IMG/VR virus record: IMGVR_UViG_3300026142_000011
Span: 1-39,047 of that record
Origin: a virus
DNA length: 39,047 nt
Direction: 5' to 3' (one strand)
Under the pieces are notes generated by a model, which saw only the letters and a program-made list of their open reading frames with translations, was not told the DNA's origin and searched no databases. Of this stretch, positions 15,456 through 38,514 are shown piece by piece (position 1 is the stretch's first letter; every line of letters begins with the position of its first letter). Both the position numbers and the translations under genes were made by a program.

Positions 15456-15507
15456 GCACACCCCCCCTTACTTCTCATAAATAGGGAAGCCTTAGATGGG
15501 TTATGTA

Positions 15508-15701
15508 GTACCTGTGATTGAGCAGCTGCTCTGTAGTGTCTTAGTCAGAGCGCCTCTTCAGCCCATTAGGGGGTGTGGAACAGAGCCTGGATTTGAACCT
15601 TTCGGTATGAGAACCAGGTTGTCAGGGCTATTGCGACTGTAGTTTTAGATCCAGGGAGTCAATCGGATCAGAACAGGTACATTAGTGACCTGGAAAAGGT
15701 C
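15508..15701 (-). ncRNA. Predicted multibranched structured RNA (15.5-15.7 kb)
   Basis: No ORF, but a closing stem of 8 perfect pairs, 15508-15515 with 15673-15680. Inside are GATCC/GGATC (15648-15652, 15665-15669) and CCTGG/CCAGG (15586-15590, 15614-15618), which encloses a symmetric internal loop and ACC-GAAA-GGT, a GNRA hairpin only on the minus strand. A 7-bp stem GCTCTGT/ACAGAGC (15528-15534, 15580-15586) also forms. A leading hairpin GACCT/AGGTC sits at 15687-15701, where transcription is expected to begin. A CAT-containing loop and a GGTTCAAATCC motif made me test for tRNA, but no acceptor stem fits. Confidence 0.55.
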
Positions 15702-15707
15702 AATTTA

Positions 15708-15758
15708 AGCGTATACGTAAGGAAAGCACTTGTCAAAAGTGTGATATTATCTTATAAA
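15708..15758. promoter_or_regulatory. Back-to-back promoters with overlapping -35 boxes
   Basis: Plus: TTGTCA (15730-15735), 17-nt spacer, TATAAA (15753-15758), start near 15765. Minus: TTGACA (15736-15731) with a -10 of either TACGCT (15713-15708, 17-nt spacer) or TATACG (15715-15710, 15-nt spacer), start near 15701. The two -35 hexamers share five bases, so one polymerase should exclude the other and the two RNAs may be expressed in competition. Confidence 0.55.
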
Positions 15759-15764
15759 TAGTAG

Positions 15765-15837
15765 TGAACAGATCTGCGAGGTGAACCTGGAAAGCAAAAA
15801 AGACCCTAGCCACTCGGCCATCATGGGTCTTTTTTGT
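15765..15837 (+). ncRNA. Predicted short RNA of ~73 nt with ACUC hairpin
   Basis: A strong-looking promoter is followed after only ~70 bases by an intrinsic terminator, and no ORF fits between. The 3' end is AGACCC (801-806 of 15,xxx), UA, then the inner hairpin GCC-ACUC-GGC (15809-15818), six bases, GGGTCT (15825-15830) and a U-run. The same architecture occurs in the 36.3-kb RNA. Could be a regulatory sRNA or a decoy; function unknown. Confidence 0.5.
15796..15835. terminator. Bidirectional intrinsic terminator
   Basis: AAAAAAGACCC (15796-15806) pairs with GGGTCTTTTTT (15825-15835). It ends the short plus-strand RNA and, read the other way, terminates minus-strand transcription after the basic repeat gene at 15856. 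Confidence 0.85.
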
Positions 15838-15855
15838 GTAATACTGCCAGAAGAA

Positions 15856-37341: not shown

Positions 37342-37659
37342 TCACAGTAGCCCAGACTTCCTTCTCTTTTTATAACACCTTAAGCAAAATCCTTTGGCGT
37401 GATGAGTGCCGCCACACTGGATACAATCTTGGGTATACCTACCTTCTTTTTTAAGGTGAGTGATCCGGTGTTCCTGTGGAGATAGTAGTTCCAGATTTTC
37501 CATACTATTGTCTGATTTGACTCCATTCTTGTGATGGACTTGTTCTTCAGTCTTTAGTTTTCTACCAAGGTACTTCTCCATCACTACCCTGTGCTCATAT
37601 TTCCAACAATCTTCCGTCTTATCCCATATTTTTACATATCCCCTTTCATTAGTAGGCAT
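37342..37659 (-). CDS. HNH endonuclease
   Basis: 105 aa. HNH_3 core (EHRVVMEKYLGRKLKTEEQ, VHHKNGVKSDNSMENL, EHRITH) and a C-terminal zinc knuckle (CIQCGGTHHAKGFCLRCY) like that at the N-terminus of the 19.6-kb HNH protein. It lies directly downstream, on the same strand, of the large predicted RNA, so it may be read from the same transcript. Another free-standing homing enzyme. Confidence 0.88.
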   Translation of the reverse strand: MPTNERGYVKIWDKTEDCWKYEHRVVMEKYLGRKLKTEEQVHHKNGVKSDNSMENLELLSPQEHRITHLKKEGRYTQDCIQCGGTHHAKGFCLRCYKKRRKSGLL

Positions 37660-37679
37660 AAATAAAGGTTATTACTCTA

Positions 37680-37856
37680 GGTTTTACCTTGGGACCAGGA
37701 GGCATGGTTTGACATACAGTACAGCTTTGCTTTTCGATGCTGCAAAACCCGTGGCCACCTTTTATTGCAGGTAGGCATAGAGCTCACTGTCTCCCACTCC
37801 TGGTCTCAAGATAAAAACTTACACAATCTACGGCAAATTGTAGGTTTTTTACCGAA
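37680..37856 (+). ncRNA. Predicted plus-strand structured RNA with 14-bp closing stem
   Basis: 37688-37701 pairs with 37797-37810 over 14 bp. One pair (37692 with 37806) is G-U on the plus strand but A-C on the minus strand, so plus is the functional strand. Inside are GTGG/CCCAC-type and ACCT/AGGT hairpins, plus TTTGC/GCAAA. ACAGT (near 37716) and ACTGT (near 37785) could form a further long-range pairing. A plus-strand terminator follows. The promoter is weak (TATTAC near 37670). Confidence 0.5.
37826..37856 (+). terminator. Terminator of the plus-strand structured RNA
   Basis: AATCTAC pairs with GTAGGTT (7 bp including one U-G wobble that exists only on plus), 8-nt loop, followed by TTTT. 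An alternative TTGTAG/CTACAA hairpin overlaps it, so a switch between two folds is possible. Confidence 0.5.
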
Positions 37857-37867
37857 ATCTACAACTT

Positions 37868-38219
37868 AAAGCGACAGGCAGGATCTCTCGATATTACGAG
37901 TGGGCCAACACTAGGATAGCCTCAAGTACGACGTTCCCTCCCGCCCTATACCTAGCAAGGTTATAACGGATTTTTAAAGGGGTTTGCTTCCTGCTACGTT
38001 CGTCTTCTGCCGCTTTGAATCCAGGAACGCTAGCCTTGCACTAGTACGGATTGTTCACGGGCGAAGCCGCGTGATCTCTCGTTCCTGTTAAGTCACTTCG
38101 CCCAGAGTCGAACTGGGATGGGTTTTACAGTGAACGTTACACCGTACCCCTTGGATTTGGCCAAACCATCAGTTTCTTCAACTGTAGGCAATTATGCGAT
38201 CCGCTCGTCTCGAAGTGAC
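37868..38219 (-). ncRNA. Predicted large multi-domain minus-strand RNA (~350 nt)
   Basis: Three consecutive closed domains with no ORF. Domain 1 is tRNA-like (38093-38218). Domain 2 has 8 perfect closing pairs, 38022-38029 with 38080-38087, and an inner CACG/CGTG hairpin. Domain 3 is closed by 37868-37873 with 38011-38016 and GCAG/CTGC (37878-37881, 38007-38010), and has a 9-bp inner stem 37911-37919 with 37946-37955 (one bulged A). A promoter places the start within a few bases of domain 1. It reads toward the HNH gene. Size and packing recall large ornate phage RNAs such as GOLLD and ROOL, but I cannot match either. Confidence 0.5.
38093..38218 (-). ncRNA. tRNA-like domain with canonical T-arm and acceptor-like stem
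   Basis: Minus strand: TCACTTCG (38218-38211) pairs with CGAAGTGA (38100-38093), 8 bp. Directly inside its 3' strand lies CCCAG-UUCGACU-CUGGG (38117-38101), a 5-bp stem with a 7-nt T-loop of consensus type, at the same spacing as in a true tRNA. Also CAGTT-GAAGA-AACTG and ACGGTG-UAACGUU-CACTGT, whose G-U pair exists only on minus. Total ~124 nt with no normal D-arm or anticodon loop and no CCA. A tRNA mimic is likelier than a working tRNA. Confidence 0.5.
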
Positions 38220-38225
38220 AGATCA

Positions 38226-38271
38226 ACAATACACCAGGCATATTTACAAATCAATAATCTGACCATATAAT
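38226..38271. promoter_or_regulatory. Divergent promoter pair for the large RNA and the early operon
   Basis: Plus: TTTACA (38243-38248), 17-nt spacer, TATAAT (38266-38271, perfect). Its start should fall on or next to the ATG at 38278, so the mRNA would be leaderless. Minus: TTGATT (38254-38249), 17-nt spacer, TATTGT (38231-38226), starting near 38219 at the first stem of the large RNA. The two -35 boxes lie next to each other. Confidence 0.6.
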
Positions 38272-38277
38272 CGAACC

Positions 38278-38514
38278 ATGGATGAAGAAGAAATTATTAA
38301 GAGATACATTTCCCAGAAACAGTCTGCCTATGCAGATCGGTTGTGGAAAAAGTTTCCTACCATCGCCTCACGTAGGGAGCGGCTGGCTTCTGCCCACTAT
38401 GTGAGGCAGCTGAGACTCTATGGCAAAGAGTTGGCTGACTCGTGGTTAAAGGAAAAGTTCCCTGATTCCTGGGAGCAAATGTTAGAATCCCCTTCTTTTA
38501 AACGGCTCTCCTAG
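38278..38514 (+). CDS. Hypothetical early protein, probably from a leaderless mRNA
   Basis: 78 aa, charged and helical (DEEEIIKRYISQKQSAYADR, later RLASAHYVRQLRLYG). TATAAT ends six bases before the ATG, and no Shine-Dalgarno site exists. First gene of the plus-strand operon. No family recognised; could be an early host-takeover or regulatory protein. Confidence 0.7.
   Translation: MDEEEIIKRYISQKQSAYADRLWKKFPTIASRRERLASAHYVRQLRLYGKELADSWLKEKFPDSWEQMLESPSFKRLS

Follow-up and report, generated by a model that had tools for sequence, protein, structure and literature searches.

A candidate minus-strand phage RNA of several domains with a tRNA-like 5' end

Few products of phage genomes are as poorly understood as large ornate RNAs. 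The region described here is a 618-nt gap (37660-38277) in an IMG/VR viral record, in which no plausible gene lies. The window, meaning the whole 39,047-base stretch analysed here, encodes a terminase, an SU10-type capsid protein, an Erf recombinase and several HNH endonucleases. The gap is a divergent intergenic region adjoining the recombination gene erf: an early operon leads away on the plus strand on one side, and a leftward HNH gene, the first of its direction (from 37659), is followed by late genes on the other. The only ORF that touches the gap is a chance ORF of 50 amino acids overlapping its edge, in agreement with an initial annotation of the region as ORF-free. Our analysis suggests that about 540 nt of this non-coding stretch probably encode an elaborately folded RNA. 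We regard the chances as roughly even that it is an orphan, free-standing scaffold RNA of the ornate type, read from the minus strand and headed by a tRNA-like domain, with a function that we infer.

Strand, domains and start site

Folding places the RNA on the minus strand. The coordinates of the initial annotation were given on the plus strand, where the 392-nt reading is no more stable than its shuffles (z +0.64). On the minus strand of 37680-38225, a unit of 546 nt, the folding z-score is -3.83 and none of 100 shuffles is as stable; the plus strand has no such excess. The interval first proposed, 37868-38219, was well chosen in that it comprises exactly three abutting domains (D1, D2 and D3, closed by 9, 8 and 6+4 pairs), but it left out a fourth domain, D4, and the RNA is correspondingly larger (Table 1). 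Every domain folds better on the minus strand, with computed z-scores (minus/plus) of -3.2/-1.6 for D1, about -3.3/-1.9 for D2, -1.6/+0.8 for D3 and -4.8/-3.1 for D4; the stability of D3 on its own is not significant, and D4 is stable as plus strand also.

Table 1. Features in and beside the non-coding gap (window positions)
Feature	Position	Strand	Remarks
HNH endonuclease gene	37342..37659	-	Immediately follows the RNA; matches PHROG HNH families (best E 4e-16)
D4	37680..37819	-	Interrupted closing helix of ~19-20 bp; z -4.8, 0/400 shuffles; pair probabilities 0.7-1.0
D3	37868..38016	-	Closed by AAAGCG(G)CAG / CUGC(CUGU)CGCUUU; multibranched interior; outer pairs P 0.76-0.97
D2	38022..38087	-	8-bp closing stem CAGGAACG/CGUUCCUG; z -3.25; pair probabilities 0.89-1.0
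D1, tRNA-like head	38092..38219	-	Closed by 9 perfect Watson-Crick pairs; z -3.2; closing pairs P 0.86-0.96
T-arm of D1	38101..38117	-	CCCAG-UUCGACU-CUGGG, stacked on the acceptor-like stem; T-arm pairs P ~0.7
Promoter-like site	38226..38254	-	TTGATT-17-TATTGT; 8/12 match; predicted +1 = 38219
Divergent 78-aa ORF	38278..38514	+	First gene of the rightward operon; promoter (11/12) at 38243-38271

The closing helices of D1 to D3 have pair probabilities of 0.76-1.0, that of D3 carrying a bulge. Within D2, a CUAG-UGCAAGG-CUAG hairpin with a T-loop-like UNCRA motif stacks on the closing stem. D3 holds CCUUGC, which is complementary to the D2 loop GCAAGG; a loop-loop pairing between the two was noticed and set aside, since the minimum-energy fold already engages part of CCUUGC in pairs. 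The closing helix of D4 (UUUUAUCUUG-A-GACCAGGAG / CUCCUGGUC-C-CAAGGUAAAA) contains one A.C mismatch and encloses a branched fold. Three consecutive Watson-Crick helices of at least 8 bp arise in 3 of 400 shuffles (about 1 in 130), and when the rest of the window was divided into about 125 tiles, 2 of them also had such a run. Because D3 alone is not significant and the helix run is a 1-in-130 event, the case consists of several moderate signals and one strong one.

Inverted repeats in a divergent control region beside erf could also act at the DNA level, as an origin, a packaging site or a recombination site, and the stability of D4 on either strand would fit such an element. We consider this the least probable of the explanations, and very improbable in absolute terms, as all four domains are biased to the minus strand and the T-loop sequence of D1 makes sense on one strand only.

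The predicted transcription start of the promoter-like site falls on base 1 of the D1 stem. The computed coincidence of a promoter start with the first stem, part of the initial annotation, thus holds; the site itself lies on the minus strand and is an 8/12 match, a kind of site that occurs about 0.0019 times per nt on this strand. The strong promoter on the opposite strand serves the gene at 38278, which is apparently leaderless (its predicted +1, 38278, is the A of the ATG) and whose 78-aa product had no match in a family search. No clear or strong minus-strand terminator was found after D4; for this reason the position of the 3' end is only guessed at, and D4 might be a separate element. 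The strand, the domains, the T-arm stack and the start-site coincidence are computed, whereas we infer the transcription and ends of the RNA, its elbow (see below), its stand-alone function and its assembly.

A start at the first stem, with the HNH and late genes next on the same strand and no strong terminator between, would also fit a structured leader that heads the HNH/late transcript and acts in cis, for instance as an antiterminator of the put type that contacts RNA polymerase, or as an element for processing or stability. The put RNAs of HK022 are about 65 nt long, and 540 nt in four domains is far above that size. Moreover, the HNH gene has the look of a mobile insertion and shows no ribosome-binding site ahead of it. 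We rank the leader second and think it possible but unlikely.

At least four HNH endonuclease genes occur in this 39-kb phage (24869-25474, 33125-33628, 36634-37113 and 37342-37659), two of which adjoin the RNA. Elsewhere in the window, a 400-nt non-coding gap (15456-15855, plus strand; folding z -3.1) may be a second structured element.

The tRNA-like 5' domain

The 3' end of D1 reads CCCAG-UUCGACU-CUGGG-CGAAGUGAC, in which the T-loop is a full UUCRANY and the last segment forms the acceptor-like stem with GUCACUUCG from the 5' end. A textbook T-arm joined to an acceptor-like stem, as described from the start, is thus computed here. This stack is the one strong signal: T-arms stacked on a closing stem of at least 7 bp were found 0 times in 60 Mb of composition-matched random sequence. 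Among the loci of relatives, the sole similar perfect case nearby (in L028) resembles an ordinary tRNA, as judged by eye. The remaining parts of D1 are: in its 5' half, an AGCGGA segment resembling a D-loop and an anticodon-like hairpin, CAGU-UGAAGAA-ACUG; a palindromic GGUUUGGCCAAAUCC hairpin; and a variable-arm-like GGG..CCC arm bearing a 7-bp hairpin.

The initial annotation was also correct that the rest of D1 is not a tRNA. D1 has neither an encoded CCA nor a canonical D-stem, its anticodon-like loop carries G at position 33, and the discriminator A, followed by CUU, would pair inside the 9-bp stem rather than being free. ARAGORN made no tRNA call and Rfam RF00005 no match. In intron, permuted and relaxed modes of ARAGORN, the relaxed settings gave many equally poor calls throughout the region, none of which we believe.

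Two known architectures are nevertheless approached. D1 resembles class II tRNAs (tRNA-Leu/Ser) in its T-arm, its variable-arm-like GGG..CCC, its hairpin with a 7-nt anticodon-like loop and its AGCGGA; it differs in its length of 128 nt, in the absence of a canonical D-stem, U33 and CCA, in the added palindromic hairpin and 21-nt variable-arm hairpin, and in being rejected by ARAGORN and the Rfam tRNA model. With the tRNA-like domain of tmRNA it has in common an acceptor and T-arm, a nearly stemless D-loop and an anticodon arm replaced by other structure, but it lacks the G3-U70 pair and the CCA, and neither ARAGORN (default mode) nor Rfam reported a tmRNA.

A single-sequence covariance model of D1 was searched over about 1,330 genomes from five phyla and over 70 loci of relatives; the latter gave no homologue. 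The one notable outside match in the genomes is a genuine tRNA-Leu(CAA) (L218) and runs through the T-arm and variable arm. Both sequences contain AAACCCAUCCC-R-GUUCGACUC-Y-GGGC, with a T-stem pair swapped from G-C to A-U, and D1 has two hairpins that the tRNA lacks, one of 21 nt in the variable-arm-like loop and a second one preceding it. The match is not decisive, as about 0.04 would be expected at such an E-value over about 1,330 genomes; it is suggestive, but not proof, of a class II tRNA ancestry for D1. Three further matches (L219-L221) are at chance level. The last of these loci, whose genome belongs to the same phylum as G051 (labelled Micrarchaeota), contains a probable tRNA-Trp with a 113-nt intron (L221:1501-1685), which the Rfam tRNA model missed at gathering and which was found only in the intron mode of ARAGORN.

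The stacked T-arm and acceptor-like stem, beyond chance as they are, together with the D-loop-like AGCGGA and the tRNA-Leu as closest outside match, could reflect a mimic or decoy: D1 would be recognised by a tRNA enzyme of the host (RNase P, a T-loop modification enzyme, the CCA-adding enzyme or a defence nuclease that cuts tRNA) and would sequester or recruit it. The missing CCA, the paired discriminator, the G at position 33 and the lack of an ARAGORN or Rfam call make this improbable, and a partner gene was not seen. The earlier suggestion that the RNA binds a tRNA-handling protein found no support: no such gene was identified among about 30 annotated proteins, and D1 has no encoded CCA or canonical D-stem.

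A decayed tRNA gene, or several, with insertions beside homing endonucleases and no present function, would explain the tRNA-like 3' half and the 21-nt hairpin gained relative to tRNA-Leu, in a phage that holds several HNH genes. We judge such a remnant highly improbable, since the perfect 9- and 8-bp closing stems and the strand-specific stability of all domains are unlike decay and D2 to D4 are unlike tRNAs.

Homologue searches and comparison with known phage RNAs

The RNA is known from one genome only. Over the region, Rfam gave no family match at gathering or at E 10, apart from a snoRNA at E 1.8 that we attribute to chance (region and D1 alone at E 10); in particular, the covariance models of GOLLD, ROOL, HEARO and OLE had no match at either threshold, and the models of group I/II introns and YrlA none. 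No homologue was recovered by blastn against phages and plasmids, in 50 full related viral records, or with four DNA patterns over IMG/VR, collections from which near relatives of the record may be absent. Two of the patterns had zero matches, and those of the others (CTAGTGCAAGGCTAG, 13; CGAGACGAGCGGATCG, 32) lie in unrelated contexts. Thus, no homologous loci were available for covariation, and 'new', as the RNA was first called, holds only as the absence of a match in Rfam and any collection searched. Relatives were reached through neighbouring proteins: their terminases do not exceed 66% identity, and IMG/VR contains no relatives of the 78-aa ORF or of a 698-aa portal-like protein. In AT-rich relatives, the possibility of a conserved RNA opposite erf was considered and rejected, as the consensus folding was weak and about equal on both strands.

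Bacterial Y RNAs such as YrlA carry a tRNA-like module within a phage-compatible non-coding RNA. The window RNA has a tRNA-like module too, but the YrlA family differs in that the window RNA lacks any Rfam match and no Rsr (TROVE-type) gene was identified among the proteins scanned, which took in a part of the small ORFs.

ROOL and GOLLD are phage non-coding RNAs with many helices, often near tRNA islands, whose function is unknown; ROOL env-120 is 659 nt long, GOLLD often exceeds 800 nt, and GOLLD linkers sometimes contain tRNAs (PMC12286853). The window RNA is comparable in size and many-helix style. It differs in having no Rfam match even at E 10, in that its tRNA-like module is its first domain, and in that the window contains no tRNA genes. 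A homo-oligomeric RNA cage is a trait of GOLLD and ROOL, and the window RNA may assemble as well. Since the style is common but the sequence models are not matched, we do not file it as a member of either family.

The scaffold-RNA reading is based on: strand-specific folding, closing helices of high probability and a T-arm stack beyond chance; a start at the first stem base, a gap without a plausible gene and a D1 model that picks out tRNA-Leu; and strongly folded non-coding stretches in two related phages (see below). Four of these features (folding on one strand, the T-arm/acceptor stack, the start site and the absence of an ORF) also uphold what the initial annotation called a large multi-domain RNA with a tRNA-like head. 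Against it count the single genome, the non-significant D3, the 1-in-130 helix run, the 8/12 promoter, the plus-strand stability of D4, the unclear terminator and the indecisive tRNA-Leu match. In the proposed mechanism, a weak promoter of its own, situated where the early and late genes diverge, would start a leftward structured non-coding RNA at 38219, and this RNA would fold into four stacked domains. At its 5' end, the tRNA-type T-loop of D1 is probably docked on AGCGGA, which would form an elbow on the 9-bp stem; the T-arm, the long variable-like arm and the anticodon-like hairpin may indicate that D1 descends from a class II tRNA, or mimics one, with hairpins added. The elbow would assist folding of the 5' end, shield it and give it a contact with RNA or protein, and the whole would most likely be a free-standing scaffold, much as the ornate phage RNAs GOLLD and ROOL are. 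An ornate RNA built on a tRNA-like head would tie such RNAs to the tRNA islands near GOLLD and ROOL, and the head would offer a handle on function through T-loop enzymes, RNase P and CCA addition.

Structured stretches in related phages

Two relatives carry strongly folded non-coding stretches: a multi-domain stretch about 5 kb upstream of terminase (L064:4870-5290, plus strand), with very strong folding (z -6.6) and no phage or locus match; and a stretch about 6-7 kb from terminase (L035:760-1300, minus strand), with z -5.7 on the minus and -3.1 on the plus strand. Both are unrelated in sequence to the window RNA and have no Rfam match. They hint at a tendency of this phage group, not thereby demonstrated, to carry orphan structured RNAs upstream of terminase. 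They also suggest that unrelated, strongly folded RNAs are commoner than family-based searches show. A broader proposal is that these RNAs form a new ornate class, in which a multi-domain scaffold has at its 5' end a capping module derived from class II tRNA and orphan members across terminase-defined phages (the window, L064 and L035) evolve too fast to be joined by sequence; we advance it tentatively and consider it rather unlikely.

Non-coding regions upstream of terminase in two further loci, otherwise diverged, contain a conserved hairpin block (ATTGGCTTAACTGCGAGTG inside a long stem) that is about 89% identical between them (L028:6598-6653 and L023:2599-2654, both minus strand). Another two-domain structured non-coding stretch lies just upstream of the terminase gene in L031 (1600-1900, plus strand; regression z about -4.9), and the same stretch is present in L032.
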